Below, in pieces: positions 3,310 to 44,789 of a DNA stretch of 64,000 nucleotides (its first letter is position 1; every line of letters starts with the position of its first letter). The notes under the pieces are model-generated. The model was not told the origin of the DNA and made no database searches. It saw only the letters and a program-made list of their open reading frames with translations. The translations under genes were made by a program, and so were the position numbers. Location of the stretch: the NCBI GenBank assembly GCA_030378035.1, contig JAUCGI010000002.1, forward strand, positions 1 through 64,000. Reading direction: 5' to 3'. This DNA is from Desulfobacterales bacterium HSG2. Lineage in GTDB: Bacteria > Desulfobacterota > Desulfobacteria > Desulfobacterales > 4be13.

Positions 3310-3312
3310 TCC

Positions 3313-3378
3313 GGTTTACGGTTTACGGTTTACGGTTTACGGTTTACGGTTTACGGTTTACGGTTTACGGTTTACGGT
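3313..3378. repeat. GGTTTAC heptamer tandem array
   Basis: Nine perfect head-to-tail copies of GGTTTAC plus a partial tenth start three bases after the secA stop codon. The array resembles the telomere-like heptamers of eukaryotes in form only. It belongs to the simple-repeat intergenic arrays seen throughout this window. Confidence 0.95.
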
Positions 3379-6261: not shown

Positions 6262-6401
6262 TGGTCAGTTGTCAGTGGTCGGTGGTCAGTGGTCGGCCAC
6301 TGACAACTGACAACTGACAACTGACAACTGACAACCGACAACCGACAACTGACAACCGACAACCGACAACTGACAACCGACAACCGACAACCGACAACCG
6401 A
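6262..6401. repeat. Low-complexity GTCAGTGGTCG / CAACTGACAACCGA array
   Basis: Heptamer-like units (CAACTGA, CAACCGA) run from just after the clpA stop to the base before the aat start codon. The first 35 bases are the reverse complement of the remainder, so the transcript could fold into a long hairpin centred near 6297. The array leaves no space for a ribosome binding site in front of aat. Confidence 0.9.
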
Positions 6402-6402
6402 C

Positions 6403-7104
6403 ATGCCTGTTTTTCTTTTATCCGACAAAATAGGATTCCCTCCCCCTCATCTTGCCCGGGAAGACGGAGTGCTGGCCGTGGGCGGCGACCTGAGCGAGAA
6501 GCGTCTTCTGCTTGCTTATAAGATGGGCATATTCCCGTGGTTTTCAGGCGATGAGCCGATTATCTGGTGGTCGCCTGACCCGCGGCTTGTGCTCTTTCCA
6601 AAGGATATCCATGTTTCAAGAAGTCTGAAAAAGACGATCAGAAAAGGCGTGTTTCGTTTGACAATGGACACGGCTTTTTCCCGGGTGATCACTTCATGTG
6701 CAGATATCCGGGTACAGAACAACGAAGGAACCTGGATTGTCGATGAGATGATCGAAGCCTACTGCAAGCTTCATGAATCCGGCTTTGCCCATTCGGTGGA
6801 AGCTTGGTGTGACGGGGAACTGGCCGGCGGTTTATACGGGATTTCGCTGGGAAAATGTTTTTTCGGGGAATCCATGTTTTCCCATGTCAGTAATGCTTCA
6901 AAGGTGGCGTTTGTCAGTCTTGTGGAATATCTTAATGCCTTGTCCTTTGATATGATCGACTGCCAAATCAAAACCCAACATCTGATGAGTTTCGGCGCGC
7001 GGGAGATCCCCAGAAAGCGTTTCCTGATGCAGCTTGCAAAATCCTTAAAATCACCGACAAAAAGAGGGAAATGGGGGGTAAAAGGGTTAAGGGTTAAGAG
7101 TTAA
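6403..7104 (+). CDS. aat: Leucyl/phenylalanyl-tRNA--protein transferase
   Basis: Aat transfers Leu or Phe from aminoacyl-tRNA to N-terminal Arg or Lys residues, creating the primary destabilising residues that ClpS recognises. The 233-residue protein shows the family signatures [20 protein letters not shown], the YKMGIFPWF block, WWSPDPR and a GESMFS segment. The position next to clpS-clpA completes a functional cluster. The start is odd: the ATG directly follows a heptamer repeat and has no recognisable Shine-Dalgarno. The last residues (about KGLRVKS) are encoded by the beginning of another GGGTTAA-type repeat, so the C-terminal tail appears repeat-derived. Confidence 0.96.
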
Positions 7105-7330
7105 GGGTTTGAGGGTTAAGGGTATATTATCCTTAACAAACCCAGAAACCCAGAAACCCATAAACTTACAAACTCGCAAACTCGCAAACTCGCAAACCCG
7201 CAAACCCGCAAACCCGCAAACCCGCAAACTCATCAAACTCACAAACTCATCAAACTCACAAACTCACAAACTCATCAAACTCACAAACTCATCAAACTCA
7301 CAAACTCATCAAACTCACAAACTCACAAAC
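7081..7330. repeat. GGGTTAA and CAAACTCA simple-repeat tract
   Basis: The tract begins inside the aat C-terminal codons with GGGTTAA repeats. It then changes to AACCCAGA, AACTCGCA, AACCCGCA and finally AACTCATC/AACTCACA units up to about 7330. A 79-codon frame (7109-7348) reads through it only because the units lack stops, and it is not considered a gene. The tract abuts the end of the convergent LysM-protein gene. Confidence 0.9.
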
Positions 7331-8749
7331 TCAGTTTTCAAAAATTAAAACTTTCCCTGGAAAGATTCTGCCAGGATTTATGCCCATTTTTTCGGCTTCT
7401 TTTCTCCAGTTTAAACTTGTCCCGAGCACTTTTTGGCAAATCCTGGAGAAAACGTCACCGCTGTTTACTTTGTAAGCAATACGGCCGTCGCTCAGTTTGA
7501 GGCTTTCCCCTTTCTTCAGAGACTTTGTTAATTTTGAAATATCCTTTGCTGTAAGTCTCTTTTTAACCTCTGCTTTCGGTTCTTTTGCCGCGGGTGCTGA
7601 TTCTTCGGGAACTATTTTTCCCGGAGCCGGTGATTCAGGTTCGACAGCTTTTTCAGCCAGTTCCGCTTTTTCCTTTATATCTTCTTCGACTGGCTTAACA
7701 GGAGCCTCCGGGACTGCTTTTTCCGGTGATTCAGGCTCGGCAGCTTTTTCAGCCAGTTCCGCCTTTTCCTTTATATCTTCTATATCTTCGGCCGGCTTGA
7801 CAGGAGCCTCCGGGACTGCTTTTTCCGGTGATTCAGGCTCGACAGCTTTTTCAGCCAGTTCCGCCTTCTCCTTTATATCTTCAACCGGCTTGACAGGAGC
7901 CTCCGGAACAGCTTTTCCCGGAGCCGGTGATTCAGTCTCGACCGCTTTTTCAGCCAGTTCCGCCTTTTCCTTTATATCTTCGGCAGGCTTGGCAGGAGCC
8001 TCCGGGACAGCTTTTTCCGGTGATTCAGGCTCGACGGCTTTTTCAGCCAGTTCCGCCTTTTCCTTTATATCTTCGGCAGGCTTGACAGGAGCCTCCGGGA
8101 CAGCTTTTTCCGGTGATTCAGGCTCGACAGCTTTTTCAGCCAGTTCCGCCTTTTCCTTTATATCTTCGACAGAAGCCTCCGGGACCGCTTTTCCCGGAGC
8201 CAGTGATTCAGTCTCGACAGCTTTTCCCGCCTTTTCCTTTATATCTTCGACTGGCTTAACAGGAGCTCCCGGCCCTGTTTCCGGCTCTTCGATAGCGTCT
8301 GGAGGATGCGTTTCTTCAGCCGCTTTCACTGCCGTTTTCTTACCGGCATCCGCTACCAGCATAGGCGCTGTCTTTTTTTCAGCCGGTTCCGCCCCGGCTT
8401 CCTTTACCGCTTCTTCCGGCTGACCGGAATCTGTCTCCGATGGTTCAACTTTCGGCGTCTGAACTTCAACATCCGTTTCAGTCGCTTCATCAGGTACGCT
8501 TTCTGTATCCGATTTAACAGGCGTTCTGTGCTTTTCCGAATCTGTTTTCATCGCAACTTCCGCCGAAGGAGTTTTTTCGGGGACAGACGCCTTTCCTGTC
8601 TGGCTAATATCTGATGACTTTATGGCGGGGTCTGTGTAGTATGATGCGACAGTCCCCCCTATTTCAGGGCATACAAACATTCCCACAAGTGTTATTACAA
8701 TGGCAGACAACGTAAAACATAATACAGCGATCAAAATTTCCTTTTTCAT
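7331..8749 (-). CDS. Membrane-anchored Pro/Glu/Ala-repeat protein with C-terminal LysM-like domain
   Basis: The start was set at 8749 because AAGGAG lies just upstream of that ATG, giving 472 residues. Residues 1-30 form an N-terminal signal anchor (MKKEILIAVLCFTLSAIVIT). The middle is a long acidic, proline-rich region made of seven or so variable copies of a repeat of about 30-35 residues with the core EDIKEKAELAEKAVEPESPE. It resembles the periplasm-spanning linkers of TonB- or SPOR-type envelope proteins. The last 50 residues (YKVNSGDVFSRICQKVLG ... NPGRIFPGKVLIF) look like a divergent LysM peptidoglycan-binding domain. The repeat copies are nearly identical in DNA, so length variation is likely. 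The function is probably envelope spanning, and no enzymatic domain is seen. Confidence 0.7.
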   Translation of the reverse strand: MKKEILIAVLCFTLSAIVITLVGMFVCPEIGGTVASYYTDPAIKSSDISQTGKASVPEKTPSAEVAMKTDSEKHRTPVKSDTESVPDEATETDVEVQTPKVEPSETDSGQPEEAVKEAGAEPAEKKTAPMLVADAGKKTAVKAAEETHPPDAIEEPETGPGAPVKPVEDIKEKAGKAVETESLAPGKAVPEASVEDIKEKAELAEKAVEPESPEKAVPEAPVKPAEDIKEKAELAEKAVEPESPEKAVPEAPAKPAEDIKEKAELAEKAVETESPAPGKAVPEAPVKPVEDIKEKAELAEKAVEPESPEKAVPEAPVKPAEDIEDIKEKAELAEKAAEPESPEKAVPEAPVKPVEEDIKEKAELAEKAVEPESPAPGKIVPEESAPAAKEPKAEVKKRLTAKDISKLTKSLKKGESLKLSDGRIAYKVNSGDVFSRICQKVLGTSLNWRKEAEKMGINPGRIFPGKVLIFEN

Positions 8750-17779: not shown

Positions 17780-17873
17780 TCTTAAACTTAAACTTGCACT
17801 TAAACTTGCACTTAAACTTGCACTTAAACTTGCACTTGCACTTGCACTTGCACTTGCACTTAAACTCAGACTT
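17780..17873. repeat. CACTTG/AAACTT hexamer tract
   Basis: Alternating CTTAAA and CTTGCA hexamers extend for about 90 bp after the maltokinase-like gene. A short GGATTTAGGGGAGGCC just before it resembles the end of the 181-bp element at 23707-23887, so a decayed copy may have preceded the tract. Confidence 0.85.
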
Positions 17874-19136: not shown

Positions 19137-19263
19137 TAATAATATCCCTGATTTTAGCGGATTTTGTGGTCCGAATCTGTTTTTTAACGCAGAGGACCGC
19201 GGAGTCTCATTTCTCCTGCTCCTCCCTCCGCCTTTGACAGAGGGTTGCCGTAGAATGCAGGAT

Positions 19264-19380
19264 TAAGAGCGAGAGCGAGAGCAAGAGCAAGAGCAAGAGC
19301 AAGAGCAAGAGCAAGAGCAAGAGCAAGAGCAAGAGCAAGAGCAAGAGCAAGAGCAAGAGCAAGAGCAAGAGCAAGAGTAA
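19264..19380. repeat. GAGCAA hexamer tandem array
   Basis: About eighteen consecutive GAGCAA hexamers follow two GAGCGA units and end in GAGTAA. The frame that reads as a poly-leucine protein on the minus strand is a by-product. The array belongs to the same family as the tracts at 12536 and 35869. Confidence 0.95.
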
Positions 19381-19575
19381 GACTTCGCTTGATGCGTATG
19401 GGGTGTCGGGGCCTCTGAAAAGGAGGTTCTCCAAAAGGCGTTATAATCAGGAAGCAGTAATATCCTTATGGTTGCGCTCTGACTTTTATGAGAGATATCG
19501 AAAAAGCGGGGAAGAATGAATTCTCCGATTGTGGTTGGTTTGAATCATTATGATTTATGTTAAACTCAAATTGTA

Positions 19576-19612: not shown

Positions 19613-20473
19613 TTATAATTTGAAAAGCCATATGAGAGCCATAAGAGCCACACACAGGAAGACCATAAGCATCGGGATAGCTACCGTGATACCGATAAGT
19701 CTCGTTATCGCTTGGAAATTTGTCGGTATTTGTGGATCGAGGCACAGCCCTGACGAATGTCTCATCGCTGTAACGGACCAATCATGGATAGCCAGCGAGA
19801 AAAGGCCGGCCATGATGAGGGGACACCAGAAATCTGATGATCTCACACCGGAGCGGAGCACTTCATACCCCGTTTGCATAATGAACATACAAAAACCGAT
19901 GACTGGCCCTGTCATGGCAACGCTCAAAACAAATACCTGGCTGGATGAGACCGATGCGACGAACAGGGCAAACTGTGTGGCAATGGTGATCGCTATGAAA
20001 GCCATTGCCATGATGACAAAGACAGACGGCAGGTCCACGCCTCTCAGGAGATAGGTCAGGGTCATAAAGGGGAGAAAAGTGCTGAAAATCAGGAGTTCTA
20101 TGATGATGCCTGCAAAGAGATTTCCTCTGATAATGGCAGCGGGTCCGATTGTGGAGATAAAGATAAGGTCCATGTTCTCTCTGGTGCGTTCTCTGAACAG
20201 GCGCGTCCCTGTATAGACAGGCACAAAAATCATGGACGGGACCATGAAAACGGGAAACAGAAAGCTGAACGCCCTGCGACCCATGCCGAGTGATCCGCCC
20301 TTGTCCAGTGCGGTCTCGCCAATAAAAGCAAGCATTGCTGTCAGAAGCGTAAGCAGACAAATCATCAGAATACCCGCCACAAAACGGCTCCGGACAGCCT
20401 GTCGCAGTTCTTTGACCATAATTGGGTTGAGGTTGTCATCAATTTTTTCAATAACATGCTGAATAAACTTCAT
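19613..20473 (-). CDS. ABC-2-like permease paralogue A (short form)
   Basis: The proposed start at 20473 gives 286 residues beginning MKFIQHVIEKIDDNLNP. The conserved opening IDDNLNPIMVKELRQAVRSR and several hydrophobic helices match ABC-type membrane permeases of the multi-copper-enzyme-maturation type, which are linked to MoxR and CcmA-like ATPases. It corresponds to only the N-terminal 60% of paralogues B and C, ending ALMALIWLFKL. A perfect 45-bp tandem duplication encodes GESPMKFIQHVIEK twice, so a second in-frame start with the same upstream sequence exists at 20518. It is the last gene of a four-copy series on this strand. Confidence 0.7.
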   Translation of the reverse strand: MKFIQHVIEKIDDNLNPIMVKELRQAVRSRFVAGILMICLLTLLTAMLAFIGETALDKGGSLGMGRRAFSFLFPVFMVPSMIFVPVYTGTRLFRERTRENMDLIFISTIGPAAIIRGNLFAGIIIELLIFSTFLPFMTLTYLLRGVDLPSVFVIMAMAFIAITIATQFALFVASVSSSQVFVLSVAMTGPVIGFCMFIMQTGYEVLRSGVRSSDFWCPLIMAGLFSLAIHDWSVTAMRHSSGLCLDPQIPTNFQAITRLIGITVAIPMLMVFLCVALMALIWLFKL

Positions 20474-20606
20474 CGGACTTTCCCCTGCTTTTTCAATAAC
20501 ATGCTGAATAAACTTCATCGGACTTTCCCCTGCTTCTGCGGTTTTAAGAGACAAAGCGGAGTTTTGCACTCCGTTTCGGTAAAACAGCGTAATCCTTTTC
20601 TCACCC

Positions 20607-22028
20607 TCAGTCCGTGTGATTTTTCGCAGGAGGAACAAACCCGCGAACCTGCCGGACAAACCACGGCAGATTCAGAAGGATCACAACTGCCGCATATATC
20701 CCCACAAAACCGAAGATATCCCCGCTCTCCAATTTTTTTCCCATCCGCGGAAGGTACTTGGATCCGCTCGTGAATATGCCAACAAACAGCGGGACAACAA
20801 AGGCGAGCGTATGAATCATCAGGACGACCACCCAGGTGAATTTGGGCCGGACCCATTTCTGAAGAAATTTCCTTCTGATGAACAGGCCGAAAAGCGTGTG
20901 ACAATAATGGTAAAGAAAAATTCCGGCAGTTGTCCGGAAATCGCTTTCAGAGATGTCTGAAAAAAGCGTCGCACAAAAGGTGATCACGGTCATCGCCGTT
21001 ACCCATGCGATCCCGTTGGCTGCTCCGCTGAAGAAGAAAAACGCCGTGAACCTTCTGATTCCCGCTTTCGGAATCGTCAGAGCCACCCGGGTGCTTTGTC
21101 CGTCCCGCTCACTAACAGCGCCAGTGAGCCATACCCCCATTGTCAGAACAGACAAAGTGAACCATATCTCAACTGACTCGTAAACGCTGAAATAATGGCC
21201 GCTGACAAACGCCATGATACCGGTGACGATCCAGGCAAATGTTGTGTAAGATCGGAGAGTCTTGGCCCGGTTGCATGAGGAATGACTTATCGCGGCAACG
21301 GAGACCAAATGGACAAATCCCGTGAAAAGACCGGCCAGGATGAGAACAGCGGCTGCGGGATGCCAGAAATCTGATGATCCCAGCCTGCTCCCCACACCGG
21401 AACGGAGCATTTCATGTCCCAGTGCTATGACGGACATGCAGGAGCCAAAAATAAATCCTGCCCCGGCAATGCCCAGAACAGACCTGAACACCCGGTTGAA
21501 TGAGACAGATGCGATGAACAGGGCAAACTGTATGGCAATGGTGATCGCGATGAAAGCCATGGCCAGGATGACAAAGACGGACGGCAGATCCACGCCTCTC
21601 AGGAGATAGGTCAGGGTCATAAAGGGGAGACACGCGCTGAAAATCAGGAGCGTTATGATGATGCCCGCAAGGAGCTTTCCTCTGATAATGGCAGCCGGAC
21701 TGATCGTGGAGATGAAGAGAAGGTCCATGTTCTCCTTGGTGCGTTCTCTGAACATGCGCGTCCCGGTGTAGGCAGGCACAAAAAGCATGGACGGGACCAT
21801 GAAAACGGGAAACAGGAAACTGAATACCTCTCGCCCCATGCCCTTGTACTGTGCGGTTCCGATCATGCCGCTAGTAATAAACGCGGCCATTGTTATCAGA
21901 AGCGTAATTAGAAAAATCATCAGAATACCCGTCACAAAACGGCTCTGCACGGCCTGCCGCAGTTCTTTGACCACAATCGGGTTGAGGTTGTCATCAATTT
22001 TTTCAATTATATGCTGAATGAACTTCAT
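20607..22028 (-). CDS. ABC-2-like permease paralogue B (long form)
   Basis: The start at 22028 has TGGAGGAAATTACA upstream and gives 473 residues. The N-terminal half, with six or so membrane helices, is nearly the same as in paralogues A, C and D. It includes ARRVDLPSVFVILAMAFIA-like and FRERTKENMDLLFISTISP segments. The C-terminal half adds about four further helices (FFFSGAANGIAWVTAMTVIT; YAAVVILLNLPWFV). A matching ABC ATPase (36029-36958) lies upstream on the same strand and is the best candidate partner. The substrate is unknown. Confidence 0.7.
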   Translation of the reverse strand: MKFIQHIIEKIDDNLNPIVVKELRQAVQSRFVTGILMIFLITLLITMAAFITSGMIGTAQYKGMGREVFSFLFPVFMVPSMLFVPAYTGTRMFRERTKENMDLLFISTISPAAIIRGKLLAGIIITLLIFSACLPFMTLTYLLRGVDLPSVFVILAMAFIAITIAIQFALFIASVSFNRVFRSVLGIAGAGFIFGSCMSVIALGHEMLRSGVGSRLGSSDFWHPAAAVLILAGLFTGFVHLVSVAAISHSSCNRAKTLRSYTTFAWIVTGIMAFVSGHYFSVYESVEIWFTLSVLTMGVWLTGAVSERDGQSTRVALTIPKAGIRRFTAFFFFSGAANGIAWVTAMTVITFCATLFSDISESDFRTTAGIFLYHYCHTLFGLFIRRKFLQKWVRPKFTWVVVLMIHTLAFVVPLFVGIFTSGSKYLPRMGKKLESGDIFGFVGIYAAVVILLNLPWFVRQVRGFVPPAKNHTD

Positions 22029-22259
22029 TGTAATTTCCTCCAGAGTTTTAAGAGATACGCACAAAGCGAGCTTCGCACTCCGGAAAATAAATTCCGGCGC
22101 TCAGTCGATATGGGCGTGAAGACCGAACCATAATGAGATTTCCTTTTTTTTCACATGAGTTATTTCGATCCCCGGAACCGGGGTCTTCATGACGCCTCCT
22201 TATTTTTGTCAGAGCCAGCCCCCGGAATCAATTCCGTGGCTGAAAGCGTAATCCTTTTC

Positions 22260-23675
22260 TCACCCGCAATCCGTGTGATTTCTCGCAGGAGGCACAAACC
22301 CGCGAACCTGCTTGACAAACCACGGCAGATTCAGAAGGATCACAACTGCCGCATATATTCCCACAAAACCGAAGATATCCCCGCTCTCCATCCGCGGAAG
22401 GTACCTGAATCCGCTCGTGAATACGGCAACAAACAGCGGGACAACAAGGGAGAGCGTATGAAGCATCAGGACGACCACCCAGGTGAATTTGGGCCGGACC
22501 CATTTCTGAAGAAATTTCCTTCTGATGAACAGCCCGAAAAGCGTGTGACAATAGTGGTAAAGAAAAATTCCGGCAGTTATCCGGAAATCGATTTCGGTGA
22601 AGTGATCTAAAAAAGGCGCCGCGCAAGAGGTGATCGCGGTCATCACCGTTGCCCATGCGATCCCGTTGGCTGCTCCGCTGAAGAAGAAAAACGCCGTGAA
22701 CCTTCTGATTCCCGTTTCCGGAATTGTCAGAGCCACCCGGGTGCTTTGTCCGTCCCGTTCACTAACAGCGCCAGTGAGCCATACCCCCATTGTCAGAACA
22801 GACAGGGCAAACCACATCTCAACCGAGTCGGAAACACTGAAATAACGGCTGACAAACGCCATGATGCCGGTGACGATCCAGGCAAATGTTGTGTAAGATC
22901 GGAGAGTCTTGGCCCGGTTGCATGAGGAATGACTTATTGCGGCAACGGACAGCAAATGGACAAACCCAGTGAAAAGACCGGCCAGGATGAGAACAGCGGC
23001 TGCGGGATGCCAGAAATCTGATGATCCCAGCCTGCTTCCCACACCGTAGCGAAGCATTTCATATCCCCGTGCTATGACGGACGTGCAAAACTTGAAAATA
23101 AATCCTGCCCCGGCAATCCCCAGAACAGACCTGAACACCCGGTTGCCTGAGACAGATGCGATGAACAGGGCAAACTGTATGGCAATGGTGATCGCGATGA
23201 AAGCCATTGTCAGGATGACAAAGACAGACGGCAGATCCACGCCTCTCAGGAGATAGGTCAGGGTCATAAAGGGGAGACACGCGCTGAAAATCAGGAGCGT
23301 TATGATGATGCCCGCAAGGAGCTTTCCTCTGATAATGGCAGCGGGACTGATCGTGGAGATGAAGAGAAGGTCCATGTTCTCCTTGGTGCGTTCTCTGAAC
23401 ATGCGCGTCCCGGTGTAGGCGGGCACAAAAAGCATGGAGGGGACCATGAAAAGGGGAAACAGGAAACTGAATGCCTCTCGCCCCATGCCCTTGTGCTGTG
23501 CGGTTCCGATCATGCCGCTGGTAATAAACGCGGCCATTGTTATCAGAAGCGCAATTAGAAAAATCATCAGAATACCCGTCACAAAACGGCTCTGCACGGC
23601 CTGCCGCAACTCCTTGACCACAATCGGGTTGAGGTTGTCATCAATTTTTTCAATTATATGCCGAATGAATTTCAT
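22260..23675 (-). CDS. ABC-2-like permease paralogue C (long form)
   Basis: The 471-residue protein starts MKFIRHIIEKIDDNLNP and is a close duplicate of paralogue B over its whole length. Differences cluster near residues 190-210 and in the last 80 residues. It has roughly ten hydrophobic helices. The spacing of 231 bp to paralogue B includes a GTTTTAAGAGATACGCACAA leader found before B and D, and in reduced form before A, so the leader was duplicated with the genes. Upstream lies a 181-bp palindromic element. It is probably an integral inner-membrane transporter subunit. Confidence 0.7.
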   Translation of the reverse strand: MKFIRHIIEKIDDNLNPIVVKELRQAVQSRFVTGILMIFLIALLITMAAFITSGMIGTAQHKGMGREAFSFLFPLFMVPSMLFVPAYTGTRMFRERTKENMDLLFISTISPAAIIRGKLLAGIIITLLIFSACLPFMTLTYLLRGVDLPSVFVILTMAFIAITIAIQFALFIASVSGNRVFRSVLGIAGAGFIFKFCTSVIARGYEMLRYGVGSRLGSSDFWHPAAAVLILAGLFTGFVHLLSVAAISHSSCNRAKTLRSYTTFAWIVTGIMAFVSRYFSVSDSVEMWFALSVLTMGVWLTGAVSERDGQSTRVALTIPETGIRRFTAFFFFSGAANGIAWATVMTAITSCAAPFLDHFTEIDFRITAGIFLYHYCHTLFGLFIRRKFLQKWVRPKFTWVVVLMLHTLSLVVPLFVAVFTSGFRYLPRMESGDIFGFVGIYAAVVILLNLPWFVKQVRGFVPPARNHTDCG

Positions 23676-23706
23676 TGTATATTTTTCCAGCGATTCTAAT
23701 TTTGAG

Positions 23707-23887
23707 TTTTCTGATTATAACGGATTTTGGGGAGGCCCGGGAATATGACAGCGGATAGGAGGATTAAACGGATATGTCCGTTTAATCCCCGGAATCCGAT
23801 GTCATGTCTGATCTGGGAATATCCGTTTCATCCCGGAATCCGTTGTCATATTCCCGGGCCTCCCCCAAATCCGTTATAATCAGAAAA
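23707..23887. mobile_element. 181-bp palindromic MITE-like element
   Basis: The segments 23707-23756 and 23838-23887 are inverted copies matching at 48 of 50 positions, with ends TTTTCTGATTATAACGGATT. The interior has a second hairpin (GATTAAACGGATATGTCCGTTTAATC, about 23762-23787). There is no coding capacity. It sits between permease genes C and D, and its transcript would form a long stem that could act as a terminator or mRNA stability element. Partial matches to its ends occur near 11431, 17755, 19437 and 38990. Confidence 0.75.
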
Positions 23888-23890
23888 ATT

Positions 23891-24772
23891 TTATCTTAAA
23901 GCTTCTATCAGAAGCAGAAGAACAAGGGGGATCATACAAAGTATCAGCACGGCTATCGTGACACCGGTAATGATACAGGCAAATGTCTTTATGGATCGGA
24001 AAGCCATGGGCCGTTTAGCTGATGAATAATGGCTTATTGCGGCAACTGACCATTCATGGATAGCTATCGAGAAAAGGCCGGCTATGATGAGAAGAGCGGC
24101 TGCGGGATACCAGAAATCTGATGAGCCCAGTCTGCTCCCCACACCGGAGTGGAGCATTCCGTATCCTATTCCTATGGTAAACATGCAAAATACGAAGATC
24201 AGTCCTGCCGTGACACCCCCCATAAAAAACCTGAATATGAATATCCGGTTGCTTGAAACAGATGCGATGAACAGGGCAAACTGTGTGGCAATGGTGATCG
24301 CTATGAAAGCCATGGCCATGATGACAAAGACAGAGGGCAGATCCACGCCTCTCAGGAGATAGGTCAGGGTCATAAAGGGGAGAAATGCACTGAAAATCAG
24401 GATATCTATAATGATGCCCGCAAAGAGCTTCCCTCTGATAATGGCGGTCGGACTGATCGTGGAGATGAAGAGAAGGTCCATGTTCTCTTTGGCACGCTCT
24501 CTGAACATGCGCGTCCCTGTATAGGCAGGCACAAAAAGCATGGACGGGACCATGAAAACGGAAAACAGGAAACTGAATGCCTCTCGCCCCATGCCCTTGT
24601 TCATTGTGGTTCCGGTGGTAATAAACAAGGCCATTGCTATCAGAAGTGAAACCAGAAAGATCATCAGAACACCCGTCACAAAACGGCTCCGGACGGCCTG
24701 CCGCAGCTCTTTGACCACAATCGGGTTAAGGTTGTCATCAATTTTTTCAATTATATGTTGAATGGACTTCAT
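23891..24772 (-). CDS. ABC-2-like permease paralogue D (short form)
   Basis: The start at 24772 (MKSIQHIIEKIDDNLNP) gives 293 residues, comparable to paralogue A and lacking the C-terminal half of B and C. The body has the conserved VKELRQAVRSRFVTG opening, the FRERAKENMDLLFISTISP loop, and about seven hydrophobic helices ending ILCMIPLVLLLLIEAL. It is the first of the four copies in transcription order. Since both outer copies are short and both inner copies long, the array may have arisen by two rounds of duplication. It may instead reflect two real architectures. Confidence 0.7.
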   Translation of the reverse strand: MKSIQHIIEKIDDNLNPIVVKELRQAVRSRFVTGVLMIFLVSLLIAMALFITTGTTMNKGMGREAFSFLFSVFMVPSMLFVPAYTGTRMFRERAKENMDLLFISTISPTAIIRGKLFAGIIIDILIFSAFLPFMTLTYLLRGVDLPSVFVIMAMAFIAITIATQFALFIASVSSNRIFIFRFFMGGVTAGLIFVFCMFTIGIGYGMLHSGVGSRLGSSDFWYPAAALLIIAGLFSIAIHEWSVAAISHYSSAKRPMAFRSIKTFACIITGVTIAVLILCMIPLVLLLLIEALR

Positions 24773-24865
24773 TGCACTTTCTACGGTTTTAAGAGATACG
24801 CACAAAGCGGAGGTTTGCACTCCGGAGAATAATTGACAAATCCGAACCGCCGGATTTGCCAATCC

Positions 24866-24983
24866 GGCGGGAGCGGAACCGGCGGAAGCGGAACCGGCGG
24901 GAGCGGAACCAGCGGGAGCGGAACCAGCGGGAGCGGAACCAGCGGGAGCGGAACCAGCGGGAGCGGAACCAGCGGGAGCGGAA
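24866..24983. repeat. 15-bp GGCGGGAGCGGAACC tandem array
   Basis: Eight units of 15 bp with the variants GGCGGAAGCGGAACC and AGCGGGAGCGGAACC lie between the permease D leader and the end of the truncated TPS gene. The unit length is a multiple of three, so both strands are open (Ala-Gly-Ser-Ala-Pro or Gly-Ser-Gly-Thr repeats), but no start signal supports a protein. Confidence 0.9.
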
Positions 24984-25029
24984 GGAACGACTCCCATACG
25001 CGTCAAGCTAAGACCGTGACCCCCTGTTT

Positions 25030-28000
25030 TTACCGGCATCCCGGAACGGCGGACCGTGACGGCCCGAAAGTAGGACTCGGCCGCAGATCATCCAAAGGCC
25101 TGGGTGCGGCGTCCGGTCCCTTAATCACAAAGCGGCTTCTCTTTCCGGTCCCCCTCTGTTCGCAGGGCGTCTTTGCCCATTTTGCCGCGTTCAGGTAGGT
25201 TTCGGGCATGACGGTCAGCGTCCCGCTGATATCGGCATCCGGGGCTTCGATCCTCACAGTTCCCTCATTGCCGCGCCTGGATGTTGCGGTCACGCCGCTG
25301 TCCGATGACCTGACGAAGTTCTCGGCGGTGATGAAGATCGCACCGCCGTCACCCTCATCCGCGTTGGCGGAGACGCCGGCCTGATTCAGAACCACGGATT
25401 CCGCGGAGAGGGAGACGTCCCCGCCGTTGCTTCCGCCCTGGCTGACATTGCTGGTGGCCGCAGCGTTCAGCAGGTATATCCGGTTGTCCGCGTCAACGGA
25501 AATCTGCCCGCCACCGGCACTCCGGGCCTCGGCACGGAGCGACGATCCGCCGGTCACTTCCACATTGTCTCCCGCCGAAATGCGGATTCTGCCGGCAGGG
25601 CCGCCGAAATCGGTTGAGTCACTGTCGGTGGTGACGGACGAGTCCGAACCGATCCGGATGTCGCCGGCTTCGATGTCGATGCCCCCGCCGCTGCCGTTTC
25701 CGGAGGTGGCGGTGCTGATGCTGCTTTTGCCGGTCACGCTCACGGAGCCGGCCCGGACAGCGACAGTTCCCGCCCGGCCGGCGGTTTCAAAAGGAACCCA
25801 TCCGCTTCCGTCATGCACAGAATATTTCGTGTCGCCGTCATTCCCGGAGATACGGATCACGTCCCCGGCCCGTGCGACAGGAGTGTCGGCTGTGTCTGAC
25901 ACGGTGAATGTCTGACCGAGCGGCAGCCACTCCTTTCCGGAATAGATCAGTGCGGAAGGGCTGCCCGCCCCGTCATCCGTTATATGCGCCACGTCCCCCG
26001 CCTTTGTCCGGACCAGGGCGTTCATCGCATTCATGTCGCCAACCTGATGCACGCTCCCGAAGGGAATCCATTCCCCGTCCGCATAGAGCAGGCGGGTACT
26101 CATATCCGCGTCGCCGGAGATGTTGGCCCCGGAGATGTTGGCCATGGTCCCGTTTTTAAGATCATACTGTTCCGAAAGGGCTGTCAGTTCCTCCGTGCCG
26201 GCGACTTCAAAATTCATGATTCGGATCACTCTTATTCTGTAAACACCGGGCGCGTCATGACGCTCCGCATAAGTGCAGAAAAACCGTGCCGGTTTTCCGC
26301 CCCCGGCATCCGTCACCTCGATCACCCTGTCCCGGGCCGCGGACGGGATATCCTCCCCCAGATGGCTGTGAATCTGAAAAGGGAGACTGTCCAGTTCGGA
26401 CATGCCGGCCATGGTTACCGTCTGATCCGGATTGTACGGTGCCCATCTTTCATGCCCCTCTGTGGAAGCCCGCATGAAGAGGGCGCTTTCCCCGTTGCCG
26501 GCATCGGTCACTCTTACCACGGCACCTTCGGGAACAATCCTCTGTCCTGGAAGCGATTCCAACGCGTTCATATCCGCCACGGTGTCATCCGCTAAAAACA
26601 GAAAGGTGTTCTCGCCCGTATAGATATAATCCGCGGACCGTCCGCCCTGCGCCTCGCTGATTCGGACAACGTCACCCTTGGTGAGAAACCGGCTGTCCCG
26701 CTCCCGGATGTCGGAAACCTCATGCGCGTTGATCCGGGTGCTTCTCGATGATATGACCGCACCCGATTCCATATCCAGACGGCCGACCCGCAGATCGATA
26801 TTTCCGGCGTTCCCGCCGCCCCCGGTGGCGGTGGACACGGTTCCGCCGTCGGAAAGAAGCAGGCGGTTCGCCTGAATACGGATATTTCCGGCCCGGTCGG
26901 AAAGTCCGCTCTTGTTTTCGGAGCGAATGTAAATTCCGCTTACGGACTTGTCGTAGAGTTCGGTGGAGAAGACCGTCATCCACCACAACTGATACACTCC
27001 CGGTTCAAGCAGCTCGGTTTGCGCGGAATCTCCGGACACGGTAATATCGTCCCGCACGGAGATATCAATGTCCCCGCGGCCGGCCGGAGAGTTGCCTCCC
27101 GAGCTGATGTTTGCGCCGTCCCTCAGTGTCAGGTTCCGCGCGGTCAGGGTGATGTTCCCGGTATCTCCCGATTCCCCGGCTCCGGAGGAAAGGGAGAGGG
27201 TATGAACGCCCGAACCGATGTCAATCGTCATTCCGTGAGGATTCACTCCGGATAATACGGCATCGCCCTCCACATGAACAGTAACATCTCCCCCGTTTCC
27301 GGACGGAAGGTTTGTATCAAATGAGGAAGTTGACGAATAAATGACGGCCCCGTCTGTCAGAACCAGTTCGCCCGCATTCAGTGTCACGTCGCCGGCGTCA
27401 CCGGAAGCATTGAATGTGTCTGTCCTGATCAGAGTGGCCAAACCCAGAATACAGACCCCTTCCAGGGCCACTTTGCCGCCGGCATTGACAATGACGTTTC
27501 CGGAATCTCCTGATCCGGCTGTCACACTGTAAATCTGTCCCCCGTCACGCATCTCCAGATCACCGGTTTCAATCCTGACGTCACCCGAACTGCCCAGGGA
27601 GTGTGACTCACAGGAGATCATGGTTCCCTGTCCGTAGGCGTCGTTTCCGGATAAACGGATGCGTTTTTCGGCCCGGAGGGTAACGTCGCCGCTATTGCCG
27701 GATCCTTTTCTGGAGATTGAATGGATAGATCCGCCGTCCTCAAGCAGAATCTCCTCCGCTTCGATCCGAATGCCGCCTCCGGTGCCCGCGTCCGGTTCCA
27801 TGCTGTCAGTAATCGTCTCAATCCTGCTTTCCGACAGGTTCGGATCGTTCCCTTTCAGTTGAACAACGGTCTCTGCCCGGACGGAGATATCGCCACCCCC
27901 GCCGCTGCCACGGGAGGCTGTGGCGATACGGAATCCGTCGTTCATCAGCAGGCTTTCGCACTCTATGTCAATACCGCGGCCGTCCCGGTCTTCCAAGGTC

Positions 28001-28953
28001 TCTGCACGGATACGGCCGCCTTCGGCAACGATCTTTCCCCCGCGGATAAAAATCCGGCCCCCGCCCCGGCCGGAGGTTTCCAGTACGGCGTTTCCGGACA
28101 GGGTCACATCGCCCATCCGGTCAAAACCGGTCAGGTCCGGATCCGTGTCTGTGAACCGGACCTCTCCGGCCGACCGGACCGCGCACAGACTGATCCGGCC
28201 GTCGGGCGCTTTCACGTCACCCGGAAGTTTCGTATCCGTGACCGGGTTGCCGTCTCCGTCCAGGACCGGCTCGCCGCTTTCATCTCTGCGCACGGCGGTG
28301 AAGCGGGTCCCGTTTCCGATGCTGATGTCACCCCCGGCCAGCATGATCTTCTTTCCCCCGGAAAGATGAAGACCGGTGGGATGATCTTCCCAGTCCCGCT
28401 CTGTGATTTCCCCTCTGCCCTCTGCCCGAATCGGAGCGACATCACCGTCCAGAAAGCCGAAGGCCGCGGGCGCGGCCACGGAGAGCACGTCGTTTGCACG
28501 GGGGAGGGCGTAAAACCGATCATTCCCGCCCATCCGCAGATAGTCGGCCGTGCTGACACGGAACGAACCGCCCAGGTCCAGAGACGCGTTCGGCCCGAAC
28601 ATCACGCCCGCGGGATTCAGGAAATACATATCCGCATCGGGAATTGCCGACGCGAGCCTGCCGTCAATCAGCGAGGCTTCGCCGCCGGTCACGCGGCTGA
28701 TGATGTTCCGCACCGAATCCGGGCCTGTGAAGGTCGCACTTTCGCCGGTGTGAATGTTGAACTGCTGGAAACTGTGGAACAGATTTGCTCCGGCCTGCTT
28801 TCCGTATTCGGCCCGAATATCATAATCCGGTCCCTGCAAATGTGATTCTCCCACGGAGCCGACAGTTCCGTCCAGTGTGATCTGGGCCTGGATCGGAACC
28901 ACGAGACTTATGGACAAAAGAATCATGACGGTCAGTTTTATGCTGTCTTTCAT
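25030..28953 (-). CDS. Two-partner secretion (TPS) domain exoprotein, C-terminally shortened
   Basis: The start at 28953 follows AAGGAGGCAAGATC and gives 1,307 residues. A Sec signal (about 1-28, ending IQA) precedes a filamentous-haemagglutinin-type TPS domain. Its motifs are AGANLFHSFQQFNIHTGESA and FLNPAGVMFGPNASLDLGGS. The rest is a beta-helix-like region rich in GGDISV, SGNVTV and AGNI repeats, with an insert (about 660-870) of IYTGE and VIEVTDAG repeats. It matches the N-terminal 1,290 residues of the neighbouring TPS-CHAT protein and then stops after PTFGPSRSAVPGCR, with the TPR-CHAT part missing. It is probably secreted by a TpsB pore encoded elsewhere. Confidence 0.85.
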   Translation of the reverse strand: MKDSIKLTVMILLSISLVVPIQAQITLDGTVGSVGESHLQGPDYDIRAEYGKQAGANLFHSFQQFNIHTGESATFTGPDSVRNIISRVTGGEASLIDGRLASAIPDADMYFLNPAGVMFGPNASLDLGGSFRVSTADYLRMGGNDRFYALPRANDVLSVAAPAAFGFLDGDVAPIRAEGRGEITERDWEDHPTGLHLSGGKKIMLAGGDISIGNGTRFTAVRRDESGEPVLDGDGNPVTDTKLPGDVKAPDGRISLCAVRSAGEVRFTDTDPDLTGFDRMGDVTLSGNAVLETSGRGGGRIFIRGGKIVAEGGRIRAETLEDRDGRGIDIECESLLMNDGFRIATASRGSGGGGDISVRAETVVQLKGNDPNLSESRIETITDSMEPDAGTGGGIRIEAEEILLEDGGSIHSISRKGSGNSGDVTLRAEKRIRLSGNDAYGQGTMISCESHSLGSSGDVRIETGDLEMRDGGQIYSVTAGSGDSGNVIVNAGGKVALEGVCILGLATLIRTDTFNASGDAGDVTLNAGELVLTDGAVIYSSTSSFDTNLPSGNGGDVTVHVEGDAVLSGVNPHGMTIDIGSGVHTLSLSSGAGESGDTGNITLTARNLTLRDGANISSGGNSPAGRGDIDISVRDDITVSGDSAQTELLEPGVYQLWWMTVFSTELYDKSVSGIYIRSENKSGLSDRAGNIRIQANRLLLSDGGTVSTATGGGGNAGNIDLRVGRLDMESGAVISSRSTRINAHEVSDIRERDSRFLTKGDVVRISEAQGGRSADYIYTGENTFLFLADDTVADMNALESLPGQRIVPEGAVVRVTDAGNGESALFMRASTEGHERWAPYNPDQTVTMAGMSELDSLPFQIHSHLGEDIPSAARDRVIEVTDAGGGKPARFFCTYAERHDAPGVYRIRVIRIMNFEVAGTEELTALSEQYDLKNGTMANISGANISGDADMSTRLLYADGEWIPFGSVHQVGDMNAMNALVRTKAGDVAHITDDGAGSPSALIYSGKEWLPLGQTFTVSDTADTPVARAGDVIRISGNDGDTKYSVHDGSGWVPFETAGRAGTVAVRAGSVSVTGKSSISTATSGNGSGGGIDIEAGDIRIGSDSSVTTDSDSTDFGGPAGRIRISAGDNVEVTGGSSLRAEARSAGGGQISVDADNRIYLLNAAATSNVSQGGSNGGDVSLSAESVVLNQAGVSANADEGDGGAIFITAENFVRSSDSGVTATSRRGNEGTVRIEAPDADISGTLTVMPETYLNAAKWAKTPCEQRGTGKRSRFVIKGPDAAPRPLDDLRPSPTFGPSRSAVPGCR

Positions 28954-29022
28954 GATCTTGCCTCCTTCTTCTCTGTTATGGTATTGGATTTCCGTGTCTG
29001 TAAACATGAACTTTTCCAGTTC

Positions 29023-35868: not shown

Positions 35869-36019
35869 GTTTACTCTTGCTCTTGCTCTTGCTCTTGCTC
35901 TTTATCTTGCTCTTTATCTTTATCTTGCTCTTTATCTTTATCTTTATCTTTATCTTGCTCCTGATAAGAAACAAGAGCAAGAGAAAGAAAAAGAGAAAGA
36001 GAAAGAGAAAGAGAAAGAT
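35869..36019. repeat. CTCTTG/CTTTAT and GAGAAA hexamer palindromic tract
   Basis: About 80 bp of CTCTTG and CTTTAT hexamers turn at TCCTGATAAGAAACAAG (about 35958) into GAGCAA/GAGAAA hexamers, forming a long imperfect hairpin. It lies between the ABC ATPase gene and the downstream 250-residue gene and might act as a transcript boundary. Confidence 0.9.
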
Positions 36020-38853: not shown

Positions 38854-38907
38854 ATTCCTCACTTTTCTGAAAAAATCCTGATGACAACACCTTTTGGGAA
38901 GCAAGGT

Positions 38908-38967
38908 GGATTCCGGGTCAGAATTGAAAAAATGTCCCATTTTTTCAATTCTGCCCGGAATGACAGG
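38908..38967. repeat. Dispersed hairpin repeat
   Basis: GGATTCCGGGTCAGAATTGA is mirrored by TCAATTCTGCCCGGAATGAC around a TGTCCCATT loop region, giving a stem of about 25 bp. The same hairpin with a few changes occurs inside the MITE at 48326-48468 and, in degraded form, near 540-590. It lies between moxR and the large membrane protein gene. Confidence 0.75.
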
Positions 38968-39032
38968 GCATGATGTCATTCCTGGTAAAGCGTTATAATC
39001 AGAAAAAATCCTCTTCTTATGTGAAATCCTGA

Positions 39033-40049
39033 TCACCTGATCTCTATATTATTCGGAAGATTCATTCCTGTTTCATCCGTTTCTGAGATCAATTCCTGTA
39101 AAACAGCCTGTGAATCCATGCGGTCAATTCGGGCCTTGTAGTTGAGAATGAGGCGGTGATTCAGGGCGTGGGCCGCGACCGCCTTGACATCTTCAAAACC
39201 GACCGCTGGCCGTCCTTCGAGCAGGGCATGGCCACGGGCGGTCTCCGCGATGCCGATGGCTGCTCTGGGCGAGGCACCGAAAGAGACGTAAGCCCGCACT
39301 TTTTCCGTTGCTTCTGCGGACTCGGGATGCGTCGCTCCCACCAGCCGGGAGATATACCGGGCCACCGGCTCGGGGAGGATCATGCGATCCATTACGGCAA
39401 AGAGTTCATTCAGCTTCTCGGCATCCATTGACCAGTCCGGAGACGGCGGCTTTCCGCGCCGCCGCGTGGATATGATGGCACTCAGTATTTCAGGTGCCAC
39501 CGGATTGACATTCAGCTTGAAAAGAAAGCGGTCAATCTGGGCCTCGGGCAGCGGATAAGTGCCCTCCAGCTCAATGGGATTCTGAGTCGCCAGAACAAAA
39601 AACGGATCCGGCAGTTTTCTGGTCGCGCCGAGCAGTGTCACAGACTGTTCCTGCATGGCCTCCAGCAGGGCAGACTGGGTTTTCGGCGTGGCCCTGTTAA
39701 TTTCGTCAGCAAGGAGGATATTCGTAAAGACCGGGCCTTTTTGAAATATCATCTTCCGTGTGCCGTCACCGGTCTCCTGCAAGATATGGTTTCCGAGAAT
39801 ATCGCCCGGCATGAGGTCAGGCGTAAACTGTACCCGGTTATACACGAGACCCAGGAGCTTTGAGAGGGTCTTTACCAGAACCGTCTTGCCCACGCCGGGG
39901 AGACCCTCTAAGAGAACATGGCCTCTGCTGAGAAGAGAGACCAGTATCATCCGGTGAACACGGGAATGTCCCAGGATAATCCGGTCCAGCTCATTCAAAA
40001 GATTTGATGTCAGTTCGTTGGCTGACTTTATTTCCTGTGGTGTAAGCAT
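39033..40049 (-). CDS. MoxR-type AAA+ ATPase (left arm, complete)
   Basis: The 338-residue protein from the ATG at 40049 is a MoxR-family AAA+ chaperone-like ATPase. It has Walker A GLPGVGKT at 49-56, Walker B LLADEINR at 112-119 and the sensor ATQNPIELEGTYPLPEAQID further on. MoxR proteins insert metal cofactors or mature partner complexes, often with vWA proteins, and none is seen next to it here. A longer frame upstream is only the TGATGCTTGA repeat read as codons. That repeat runs up to the start codon and leaves no Shine-Dalgarno. Most of the gene (from 39592) is inside the palindrome, and its partner is at 63543. Confidence 0.92.
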   Translation of the reverse strand: MLTPQEIKSANELTSNLLNELDRIILGHSRVHRMILVSLLSRGHVLLEGLPGVGKTVLVKTLSKLLGLVYNRVQFTPDLMPGDILGNHILQETGDGTRKMIFQKGPVFTNILLADEINRATPKTQSALLEAMQEQSVTLLGATRKLPDPFFVLATQNPIELEGTYPLPEAQIDRFLFKLNVNPVAPEILSAIISTRRRGKPPSPDWSMDAEKLNELFAVMDRMILPEPVARYISRLVGATHPESAEATEKVRAYVSFGASPRAAIGIAETARGHALLEGRPAVGFEDVKAVAAHALNHRLILNYKARIDRMDSQAVLQELISETDETGMNLPNNIEIR

Positions 40050-40313
40050 AATAGTTGATGTTTGATGCTTGATGCTTGATGTTTGATGTTTGATGTTTGA
40101 TGCTTGATACTTGATGCTTGATGCTTGATAGTTGATGCTTGATGCTTGATTCTTGATGCTTGATGCTTGATGCTTGATAGTTGATGCTTGATGCTTGGAA
40201 TTCGGAATCTGATTATCCAGTATCCAGTATCCAGTATCCAGTATCCAGTATCCAGCATCCAGCACCCAGCATCCAGCATCAAGCATCCAGCATCCAGCAT
40301 CCAGCATCAAACA
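40050..40313. repeat. TGATGCTTGA / ATCCAGT simple-repeat tract (left)
   Basis: The tract fills the whole space between the S41 peptidase stop and the moxR start. It holds TGATGCT/TGATGTT-type units near moxR and CCAGTAT/CCAGCAT units near the peptidase gene, with a 20-bp unique hinge (about 40196-40216). The peptidase stop codon TGA is itself the first repeat unit. Long frames in both directions are repeat artefacts. Confidence 0.9.
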
Positions 40314-42383
40314 TCAAAACGCCCCGATATCCCTCTTCAACCCATCCACCCGAATTTCCTCATGGGGATTCCCGGTTTGCTTCGGCCGGGATGAGCCTGA
40401 CTCATCCGTGCAGGTGCCATTTGAAATATAATAGAGGGCCTCTTTGAGAGACGCTTCCTCTGTGTCTCCGAACTGGCGGGTCAGGTCATCATCCGCATAA
40501 CATGCGGGCGGGATGCCCTCGAAGTAGTCGCCTTCGTCCTGAGCGTTTACGGTACTGAATTCGGCCGGAGCGATGTGGATACCGCAAAAATCCCATCCGT
40601 ACATTCCGACAGGTTTGCCTCGGGTGGTATCTCCAATGGAAATCACGTCCACAAACGGCTCAAGGCCATTCATTACCAGCTCGCTGGCAGAGCAGGTGGA
40701 TGCTGTGGTAATGCATACGACCCGATCCAAACTGAGGGCGCTTTCCGGTTTGGTGAAACGGGTTGTCTCGTTCCAACCCATGTATCTGCTGTTATGAACG
40801 GATTTCGCAAACGGTTTTCCAAAAGCGCGGTCTCCTGCAATCAGACTTGCCAGATGACGCGCGACGGAAATCTCTCCGCCCCGATTATATCTCAAATCCA
40901 AAACCAGTTCATCAATCTCACTCTCTTTAAAATAGGCAAATACTGTATCCAGTTCTTCCAGAGCCGTTTCAACAAATGTATTGAATACCAAGTAACCGAC
41001 TTTTAATCCGTTACTCTCCAGTATGTCGTAAAACAGAATCGGGTCTGTTGTCAACCATTCCTTCTCCAGATTCAGTTCCCTGATCCCGCCTTTCGGGTCT
41101 TCGATTTTCAGTTGAACCTTTACGTCCGGTTCATTCTCGCCGAAGATCGTATTCCAGAGATCATCAAGCCGGATTTCCGAAAGTGTTTTGTCATTAATTT
41201 CAAGGAGCTTGTCGCTTCTCTTCAAACCGGCTTTGTCTGCCGGTGAATCTTCATGGACAAAACTGATCCTGCAATCCCCCTTGCGATCAAACTGAGGACT
41301 GAATCCCGCGCCGATGTATCTCCCTTTTTCAAAATAGGCGTAATGTGCTTCTGTCGAAGTAATGTAGCTCCATTTATCCAAGTCCTTGTATTTCATATCC
41401 TCCAACAGCGATTGCGGTGAGGCATAGCTTCTGTAATCAATTTCCGGAACCTTGTCGTACCATAGATATGTATCTTTCATCACTTCATAGACAAATTTGT
41501 TCTGTTCTTCCACCGGACAGCCGGGAGATATCCGATATTCATGTCTGACATATCCGCTATCCGGATCTGTTTTGACATTCTCAAGATATGCGTCGCCATA
41601 AGGGAAATCGGAATAGACCCTGACAACTGTCCCGGACACATGAAAGAAATCCACGGCGGCTTTTCCGCCAATGTCAAAACGGATTTTGACAAAAATATCC
41701 GGGTTGTTCTCGCTTCCCCAACTGACGTCATCCGGGCTGGCATAAAAATATCCCCATATAATTTTATGGCCCTCAGGGGTCGTATCTTCTCCGACTTTGC
41801 GCCAGACAGGATTGATCAGCCCCTTTTCCGGGGTACGGATCAACGCGGCAATGACTATGCCGATCTTCGTGGGATAGCCCGAAAGGCTGCCCGTGGGCCA
41901 GTACAGGTGATCTTCAGACAGATTATCGGCTTCATCATTCTCGTCCGTGTCACTCCGGCCGTTTTCATAATACTGCCGGATATGCCTTTTTGAGAGGGAT
42001 GTGGTTCCATGCTCGTCCGCGGAACCGTCATAAGGATAATCTGAGTAAACATCCATATCCGGCCCCGATATGTGAAAAAAGCTGACGTCCAAGCGTCCGC
42101 TTCTGTCAAACCATATTTTGACAAACATATCCGGGTTATGGGGACTTCCCCAGCCGGCACCGTCAGGATCCGCGTGAAAATAGCCCCAGATCACAGAATC
42201 CCCTTCTTTGTCCGTAGTTTCGCCCCCCTTCTGCCAGACCGCTTCAACCGGGCTTCCTTCCTTCGCATGGATGACTGCTCTGATCCAGAGGTCGGAGGCG
42301 ACCATGTTGCCACTCGCGTAAGCTGTTCCGCCAACTGCAAAAGCCGTAATTAGTATGATGATGAATCGTATGATCTTTTTCAT
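40314..42383 (-). CDS. S41 family peptidase with tandem N-terminal beta domains and PDZ (left)
   Basis: This 689-residue exported serine peptidase has a signal peptide (about 1-24). Two repeats of about 115 residues follow (30-140 and 175-265), each with an IWGYF, DP/SPDD, NPD-FVKI-FD and FFHVS pattern. A PDZ domain comes next (about 355-440), then the S41 catalytic domain. The Ser/Lys dyad is visible as S565 in TCSASE and K590 in RGKPVG, 25 residues apart as in C-terminal processing peptidases. It should cleave C-terminal regions of proteins outside the inner membrane. It lies 204 bp downstream of a paralogue on the same strand. Confidence 0.88.
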   Translation of the reverse strand: MKKIIRFIIILITAFAVGGTAYASGNMVASDLWIRAVIHAKEGSPVEAVWQKGGETTDKEGDSVIWGYFHADPDGAGWGSPHNPDMFVKIWFDRSGRLDVSFFHISGPDMDVYSDYPYDGSADEHGTTSLSKRHIRQYYENGRSDTDENDEADNLSEDHLYWPTGSLSGYPTKIGIVIAALIRTPEKGLINPVWRKVGEDTTPEGHKIIWGYFYASPDDVSWGSENNPDIFVKIRFDIGGKAAVDFFHVSGTVVRVYSDFPYGDAYLENVKTDPDSGYVRHEYRISPGCPVEEQNKFVYEVMKDTYLWYDKVPEIDYRSYASPQSLLEDMKYKDLDKWSYITSTEAHYAYFEKGRYIGAGFSPQFDRKGDCRISFVHEDSPADKAGLKRSDKLLEINDKTLSEIRLDDLWNTIFGENEPDVKVQLKIEDPKGGIRELNLEKEWLTTDPILFYDILESNGLKVGYLVFNTFVETALEELDTVFAYFKESEIDELVLDLRYNRGGEISVARHLASLIAGDRAFGKPFAKSVHNSRYMGWNETTRFTKPESALSLDRVVCITTASTCSASELVMNGLEPFVDVISIGDTTRGKPVGMYGWDFCGIHIAPAEFSTVNAQDEGDYFEGIPPACYADDDLTRQFGDTEEASLKEALYYISNGTCTDESGSSRPKQTGNPHEEIRVDGLKRDIGAF

Positions 42384-42442
42384 AAGCGCATTGCCTGTTC
42401 GTTAGGAATATAATGATAATAAGTACATTTGTCATCTGCTAC

Positions 42443-42582
42443 CTGTCATTCCCGCGGAAGCGGGAATCCACTGTCCGCCTGGCCGACCCACCTGTCATTC
42501 CTGCAAAAGCGGGAATCCACCGATGCCTGGCTGAAAGTCTTGCTTAATCATCAGTGGATTCCTGCTTTCGCAGGAATGACAG
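42443..42582. repeat. TGTCATTCCCGC-type inverted repeats (left)
   Basis: Three copies of a small palindrome related to ATTCCCGCGAAAGCGGGAAT, two in one orientation and one inverted, lie between the two peptidase genes. The pattern is like the dispersed REP/dRS3-type repeats of many bacteria. Inverted copies at both ends make a large stem that could limit read-through between the two genes. Confidence 0.8.
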
Positions 42583-42587
42583 TTGGG

Positions 42588-44729: not shown

Positions 44730-44789
44730 TTTTCCTACCTCCTTTGTACTGAATTCAAAACAGAATTTGAAAAAGAGACCCGTTTGGAT

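Follow-up and report, generated by a model that had tools for sequence, protein, structure and literature searches.

Background

Insertion sequences of the IS256 type generate target duplications of 8–9 bp, and the DDE transposases of the wider IS256/Mutator assemblage have a C-x2-H motif after the second conserved D. The Pack-MULEs of plants combine constant ends and changing interiors with a MULE-related transposase, and the ERIC and NEMIS palindromes are associated with a TA duplication. In giant sulfur bacteria, the hupL MITE of Ca. Thiomargarita nelsonii is reported to have direct repeats of 10 bp and an inverted repeat of 19 bp, with no likely parent in ISfinder (PMC4853749). A search of the open literature found no description of MITEs for Desulfonema or Desulfobacter.

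The palindrome considered here lies in a stretch of 64,000 nucleotides from Desulfobacterales bacterium HSG2 (hereafter the window). Like the T. nelsonii MITEs, it is short, hairpin-forming and present in many copies, with inverted ends and a family tendency to flanking direct repeats; unlike the hupL MITE, with which it is compared by description only, its family has 8-bp duplications, ends of about 27 bp and a parent candidate (PMC4853749). Its size, palindromy and intergenic position parallel those of ERIC and NEMIS, whereas its ends are different and its family's duplication is of 8 bp rather than TA. With the Pack-MULEs of plants it has in common constant ends, changing interiors and a MULE-related transposase, but the interiors here are mostly palindromes or repeats, with a single gene-bearing candidate. 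What makes the family most interesting is the variation of its interiors; otherwise it adds new members to known kinds.

The element and its setting

Judged by its sequence, the palindrome at 23707–23887 is a MITE that properly spans 23711–23883. The features of the locus are:

23707–23887, no strand: palindrome as first described, 181 bp, i.e., the element with 4 flanking bases per side
23711–23883, no strand: the MITE itself, 173 bp in full, belonging to the interior group with GGGAATATGACA
23711–23737, plus strand: left terminal inverted repeat CTGATTATAACGGATTTTGGGGAGGCC, with near-identical ends in the parent elements
23857–23883, minus strand: right terminal inverted repeat, reading CTGATTATAACGGATTTGGGGGAGGCC on that strand
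23703–23710, no strand: left 8-base flank TGAGTTTT, identical to the right flank at 4 of 8 positions
23884–23891, no strand: right 8-base flank AAAAATTT
23761–23788, no strand: inner perfect hairpin GGATTAAACGGA-TATG-TCCGTTTAATCC
22260–23675, minus strand: downstream gene, tandem paralogue with a weak ABC-2 type permease match (ABC2_membrane_3, E 2.4e-5)
23891–25039, minus strand: upstream gene, permease paralogue, whose stop codon starts 7 bases beyond the element

The initial annotation had reported that 48 of the 50 terminal positions of the 181-bp stretch match in inverted orientation and that a second hairpin lies inside; recomputation gave the same count, and the hairpin was found with its arms (23761–23772 and 23777–23788) pairing at 12 of 12 positions. 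The inverted arms extend to 69 nt (23707–23775 and 23819–23887; 62 of 69 positions, 90%), and the outer TTTT/AAAA belongs to the flank, outside the MITE. In this interior group the near full-length palindrome consists of a short core between two long inverted arms. The 173-bp element has inverted ends and no transposase gene, and the window copy lacks a clean target duplication, its flanks agreeing at only 4 of 8 positions.

The element occupies most of the 215-bp gap separating two minus-strand ORFs. Its placement between two permease genes, as originally proposed, stands as regards position, while the permease label is fair but weak, being founded on one Pfam match below the curated cut-off (22260–23675) and one paralogue: frame 23891–25039 has no Pfam match at E 0.01 and is related to its neighbor at the DNA level (82.8% over 820 bp). 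An empty site was sought through this paralogy, which ends about 20 bp short of the element, and in four family members, where the flanking permease found no match. The simplest view of the element's position between paralogous genes is that it inserted into a tolerated gap; the position needs no function. In the surroundings, four tandem minus-strand paralogues of the weak ABC-2 permease family, with up to 93% DNA identity, occupy 19613–25039, and a 15-bp tandem array (24867–24983; 7.8 copies, 97% matches) encodes repeated GSAPA near the start of frame 23891–25039. A 1325-aa frame at 25030–29007 encodes a TPS secretion domain (E 3.8e-31).

Copies and target duplications

The genome of HSG2 is represented by 5.61 Mb in 288 contigs and is 72.6% complete. 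Queried with the element by blastn, it returned 131 rows at E≤10, scoring having covered 40 of 432 first-look candidates. This total takes in weak hits as well as opposite-strand ones, and since the element is palindromic, many rows are double readings of a single locus, one per strand. The 12-base end at ≤1 mismatch gives 694 matches (344+350) as against 9 (3+6) for its reversed control. Together with the 8-base duplications described below, these counts strongly bear out the early impression of a family. Near-full-length copies could be aligned, so that the refuting condition of no other full-length copies does not hold; the best copies with flanks (29 loci) have CTGATTATAACGG...CCGTTATAATCAG in common, and many of them an eight-base flank repeat. 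The recurrence of end fragments elsewhere was likewise confirmed: in the window the end 16-mer at ≤3 mismatches has 5 matches, two within the element itself, against an expectation of 0.60, and none of 100 shuffles reaches 5. Outside the element it is found exactly at 38991 and with 2 mismatches at 19439, the former because a further MITE lies there:

38878–39002, no strand: another MITE of the superfamily, by its ends of a different group, bracketed by a perfect 8-base duplication, AAAAAATC
19148–19450, no strand: two ends that differ in subtype around an AAGAGC array, target duplication absent (2 of 8), probably two element fragments

Seen this way, hundreds of unexplained repeat ends in Desulfonema-type genomes become one transposon system with a candidate parent.

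The target duplications were measured in two samples. The first comprised 432,018 bp of the HSG2 genome (window 1–51796 and 20 large-contig stretches taken from earlier hit lists, hence not blind to the family), in which 90 ends at ≤2 mismatches form 21 adjacent pairs under 1 kb. A perfect 8-base duplication flanks 11 of the 21, and 14 match at 7–8 of 8; perfect duplications of 4, 5, 6 and 7 bases number 1, 1, 1 and 2, and those of 9–12 bases none, so the peak is at 8. The second sample drew on 77 sources with loci chosen for matching the element or its ends, and is accordingly enriched for window-like copies. It yielded 71 end pairs of 60–420 bp, with 34 at 8/8, 14 at 7/8 and 23 lower; among the last are the window copy and two false alternative pairings (L006 and L008) of copies counted otherwise. 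When flanks were re-paired in 20,000 draws, ≥7/8 arose in 1.3% and 8/8 in 0.17%, against 48/71 and 34/71 observed.

The 48 duplications are 78% A+T versus 60% in the nearby flank. For the 24 of these pairs with enough flank sequence, the rejoined flanks fall in a stop-free frame of 200+ codons in 2 cases, as opposed to 75% of 480 random sites. At the level of sequence, the family copies are thus shown to occupy AT-rich sites, mostly between genes, flanked by 8-base target duplications.

A candidate parent and its transposase

The parent of the family is likely an insertion sequence with the same ends, approximately 1.35–1.67 kb long and bearing one transposase of about 420 aa distantly related to IS256/Mutator. 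Ten parent-like elements were recovered as end pairs 1.1–1.7 kb apart around transposase sequence, of which four have duplications at 7–8 of 8: two from D. magnum (L165, 1367 bp, and L194, 1365 bp), each with the ends around an open transposase frame and a 7/8 duplication; L170 (1671 bp; 8/8), which has the end variant CTCATTCTAACGGATTTTGTGG; and L166 (1348 bp), with near-identical ends and an 8/8 duplication that is poly-A and so weak. A good duplication is lacking in the other six, among them L087 (JALWQB010000215.1; 1431 bp with a 434-aa frame), which was found by seeking frames between ends and has near-identical ends flanked by a 3/8 match. The MITE ends are therefore common to autonomous-type elements (L165 and L194, and also L166 and L087). 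The stop and last codons lie inside the end in 5 of 7 aligned transposases (L165, L087, L164, L166 and L194), reading AAT CCG TTA TAA or like; L167 has the same last codons and breaks off there, and L170 differs.

All seven aligned transposases match the IS256 profile NF033543 (best E 6.9e-11), and weak matches to PF00872 and MULE were obtained for five and four of them, respectively. D151, D213, C234–H237, D324 and E348 are invariant in the seven, and the third catalytic acid may, from the spacing, be D rather than E. These profile matches point to IS256/Mutator, and the invariant C234–H237 may correspond to the C-x2-H motif of that assemblage. The 8-bp duplications are shared with IS256 itself, both in the four parent-like elements above and in a cyanobacterial relative (L244, 8/8). 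Unlike IS256, the parent's scores are far below the curated cut-off (37.4 bits for the first aligned transposase as against 150 for NF033543, with none of the 7 genomes giving a match above it) and the ends begin CTGATT. A structure model built from the seven sequences has a mean pLDDT of 47.2, and a profile search of solved structures gave three hits at E 0.14 or worse. On the viral side, PHROGs yielded one weak "transposase" match (E 0.0013), phages had no transposase match at E 1e-5, and the 25-base end pattern had no exact match in viral contigs.

In a protein search at E≤0.001, 33 of the order's 194 genomes matched the transposase, often through a fragment or a weak hit; an alignment search at E≤1e-20, in which few candidates were scored per genome, matched 5 of 395 genomes of the phylum, and the HSG2 genome had no match in it. 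No complete parent is assembled in this incomplete genome. Its contigs C188 and C140 end inside the 3' part of the transposase, and the start of C11 resembles by eye the D. magnum 5' end and carries a TTGACA-type promoter, a Shine-Dalgarno sequence and an ATG. Contig breaks inside the parent are the usual sign of a multi-copy element unbridged by short reads; we infer that complete copies exist in the genome, and contigs ending within the parent would explain some of the assembly breaks.

Taken together, the window element is very probably a MITE, a non-autonomous transposon whose mobilisation in trans depends on a DDE-type transposase; the clade of this enzyme is a distant relative of IS256/Mutator. 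The element shares about 27 bp of its end with transposase-bearing insertion sequences; the transposase would bind these common ends and act in trans, the element would be joined to a target cut with an 8-base stagger, and the gap would be filled by the host, the MITEs being in effect passengers of the transposase.

Some further observations concern related proteins. In a Desulfosarcina Grevelingen MAG, three contigs (L234, L239 and L242) have the last 36–37 transposase residues at their edge, which suggests a collapsed multi-copy parent there. Other proteins matching the IS256 profile, with E about 2e-14 and below the cut-off, are encoded in the HSG2 genome (L223, G000:C132:13347-14039) and in another genome (L222, G003). 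Elements with DDE_Tnp_1 (PF01609) were considered as the parent and rejected: the D. magnum element of this type with 14 aligned copies has other ends, and an end-like match inside it was taken as chance.

Interiors

The 71 interiors, clustered after removal of the outer 26 bp (blastn E≤1e-4 over 40+ bases), fall into groups of 28, 24, 9 and 6 with four singletons, the ends in common being about 27 bp. Target duplications are present in each group (17/28, 17/24, 6/9 and 5/6). The group of 28 contains the window copy and comes to 26 copies once the false pairings are left out. The group of 24 has many hexamer-like arrays, and low complexity may be part of what unites it. The interior of the window copy is matched at E≤0.001 in 9 of 40 genomes, HSG2 included, reaching E 4.2e-39 over most of its length in D. 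magnum. In the 9-member group the ends are somewhat different (CTGATTATAACGCCTTTTGG), as are those of L170 noted above; several related transposases may therefore be involved.

These patterns raise the possibility of a cassette with interchangeable cargo, a bacterial analogue of plant Pack-MULEs, in which one MULE/IS256-related transposase would move DNA that has acquired the 27-bp ends, unrelated interiors such as palindromes and hexamer arrays being repeatedly captured and amplified, and the system having crossed between cohabiting Desulfobacterota and Gammaproteobacteria. In its favor are the unrelated interiors, each group with target duplications, and a 1739-bp segment of Ca. Parabeggiatoa (L063) with an SCO1/SenC gene (E 5e-19), whose outer ends are flanked on both sides by AATTTTCG, a perfect 8-base duplication. 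Against it, L063 has an inner end and may represent neighboring elements whose outer flanks match by chance, the match having emerged among many pairings tried; moreover, the four interior groups could each have arisen once. We regard this extended reading as doubtful. Irrespective of it, common ends around unrelated interiors offer a natural set for studying how MITEs acquire their insides. Tandem arrays with units of 6–8 bp are also seen in the window itself (3312–3379, 6302–6403, 7136–7333, 17786–17866, 19265–19382, 35874–36018 and 40055–40317), and hexamer-like arrays make up the insides of some family MITEs.

Distribution across genomes

The 25-base end occurs exactly in 67 stretches of the genome collection, including D. 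magnum, Desulfococcaceae HSG8, Ca. Parabeggiatoa sp. nov. 3 and 1, a Desulfosarcina MAG, Ca. Magnetocorallium and others. For the 16-base end, with ≤1 mismatch allowed, the counts are 243+245 in D. magnum, 211+219 in a Desulfobacterales MAG (that of L073), 74+68 in HSG8, 42+43 in Parabeggiatoa-3, 30+35 in Parabeggiatoa-1 and 3+4 in Desulfosarcina, with 1–2 per strand in three others; the reversed control gives 0 in each genome counted. At all 15 Parabeggiatoa loci with the exact 25-base end (39.8% G+C), 5 of 12 end pairs have duplications; D. magnum and HSG8, sampled at 15 of their 34 loci (45.8% G+C), have them at 9 of 13, and the interiors of the two sets differ by eye. A transposase match was found in 5 of 8 genomes bearing the ends, Parabeggiatoa-1 having only broken pieces, and was absent from the other three, Parabeggiatoa-3 among them. 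TAACTGA heptamers are typical of marine Beggiatoaceae; the Parabeggiatoa contigs contain 45 as against 34 for the reversed control, a small difference. Besides filamentous sulfate reducers, the family, it seems, occurs also in giant sulfur bacteria, these being MAG contigs in which mis-binning is possible. Within Desulfonema, a case for gene exchange with filamentous sulfur oxidisers has been made for D. ishimotonii (PMC6390638), and the family could serve as a marker for possible exchange of this kind between sulfate reducers with filaments and the giant sulfur oxidisers.

Farther afield, relatives of the transposase were found on 8 of 72,556 plasmids, all cyanobacterial, four of them covering ≥80% of the query at about 44–47% identity. 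The Leptolyngbya boryana match is in two pieces and two genes annotated "hypothetical protein"; an inverted-repeat scan of it (L244) found the ends CTGATTCCAAATTA / CTAGTTCTAAATTT around which lies the perfect duplication mentioned above. By the same scan the Acaryochloris copy has no convincing ends, and the Kovacikia copy runs to the end of its record, which is unannotated. The Acaryochloris relative is also a "hypothetical protein", as is thus the case on both annotated cyanobacterial plasmids examined, and the family has apparently been spread by a little-described bacterial transposase. On three Acaryochloris plasmids (NZ_CP071719, NZ_CP071720 and NZ_CP071722), weak transposase matches overlap genes for a "DUF6431 domain-containing protein". 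In D. magnum, six same-strand ends spaced exactly 127 bp apart (G002:C1:3021459-3022109), among the matches listed, are possibly a tandem array of the family element.

Alternative explanations

The location between two co-directional genes invites an RNA-level reading, in which an attenuator, RNase III target or stabiliser has been retained in the operon by selection. Indeed, in a transcript the element would form a very stable hairpin: the folding energy on the strand co-directional with the flanking genes is -113.8 kcal/mol, compared with -51.1 (sd 4.3) over 200 shuffles, none of which is as good (z -14.6). Yet the processing or attenuation structure suggested in the initial annotation found no support in a terminator-like site (none in 23600–24000), in Rfam (no match at the gathering score in the window) or in compensatory change, which affects 0 of 50 consensus pairs in 20 copies (covariation term +1.45), a test whose power is limited by low divergence. 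Copies at unrelated loci with 8-base duplications behave, moreover, like transposons, and the structure of transposon ends would account for the palindrome without an RNA function; selection for an RNA role is accordingly improbable.

A palindromic, mostly intergenic and high-copy family might equally call to mind REP/BIME-like or IS200/IS605-derived repeats moved by a single-strand (Y1/HUH) transposase. A replication-strand bias of the ends in D. magnum, nearly one-stranded over 3 Mb among the matches listed, was considered and rejected as only apparent, a narrower search having found opposite-strand matches there. With this bias gone, such an origin is very unlikely, being at odds with the paired inverted ends, with the 8-base duplications and with a parent of DDE type that bears the same ends. 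Scarcely credible is the notion that the palindrome is an assembly artefact of a contig that is itself a giant inverted duplication. Contig C144 (103,591 bp) does mirror itself about 51,796 as far as seen, so that the element appears twice and L001 and L002 are one element, but it lies 28 kb from the axis, and its relatives are spread over numerous further contigs and also occur in other genomes, among them that of D. magnum, which is a single contig. Mobilisation as a MITE remains the preferred reading of the locus.

As for the contig itself, its arms at 39592–51654 and 51938–64000 of the window (12,063 bp) are 100% complementary about an axis near 51796, and the mirror copy of the element is at 79699–79892 of C144. 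This suggests that the inverted duplication takes in the whole 103.6 kb and is probably an artefact of assembly or amplification. At its axis, a tandem array with a 51-bp unit occupies 51415–52177 of the window.
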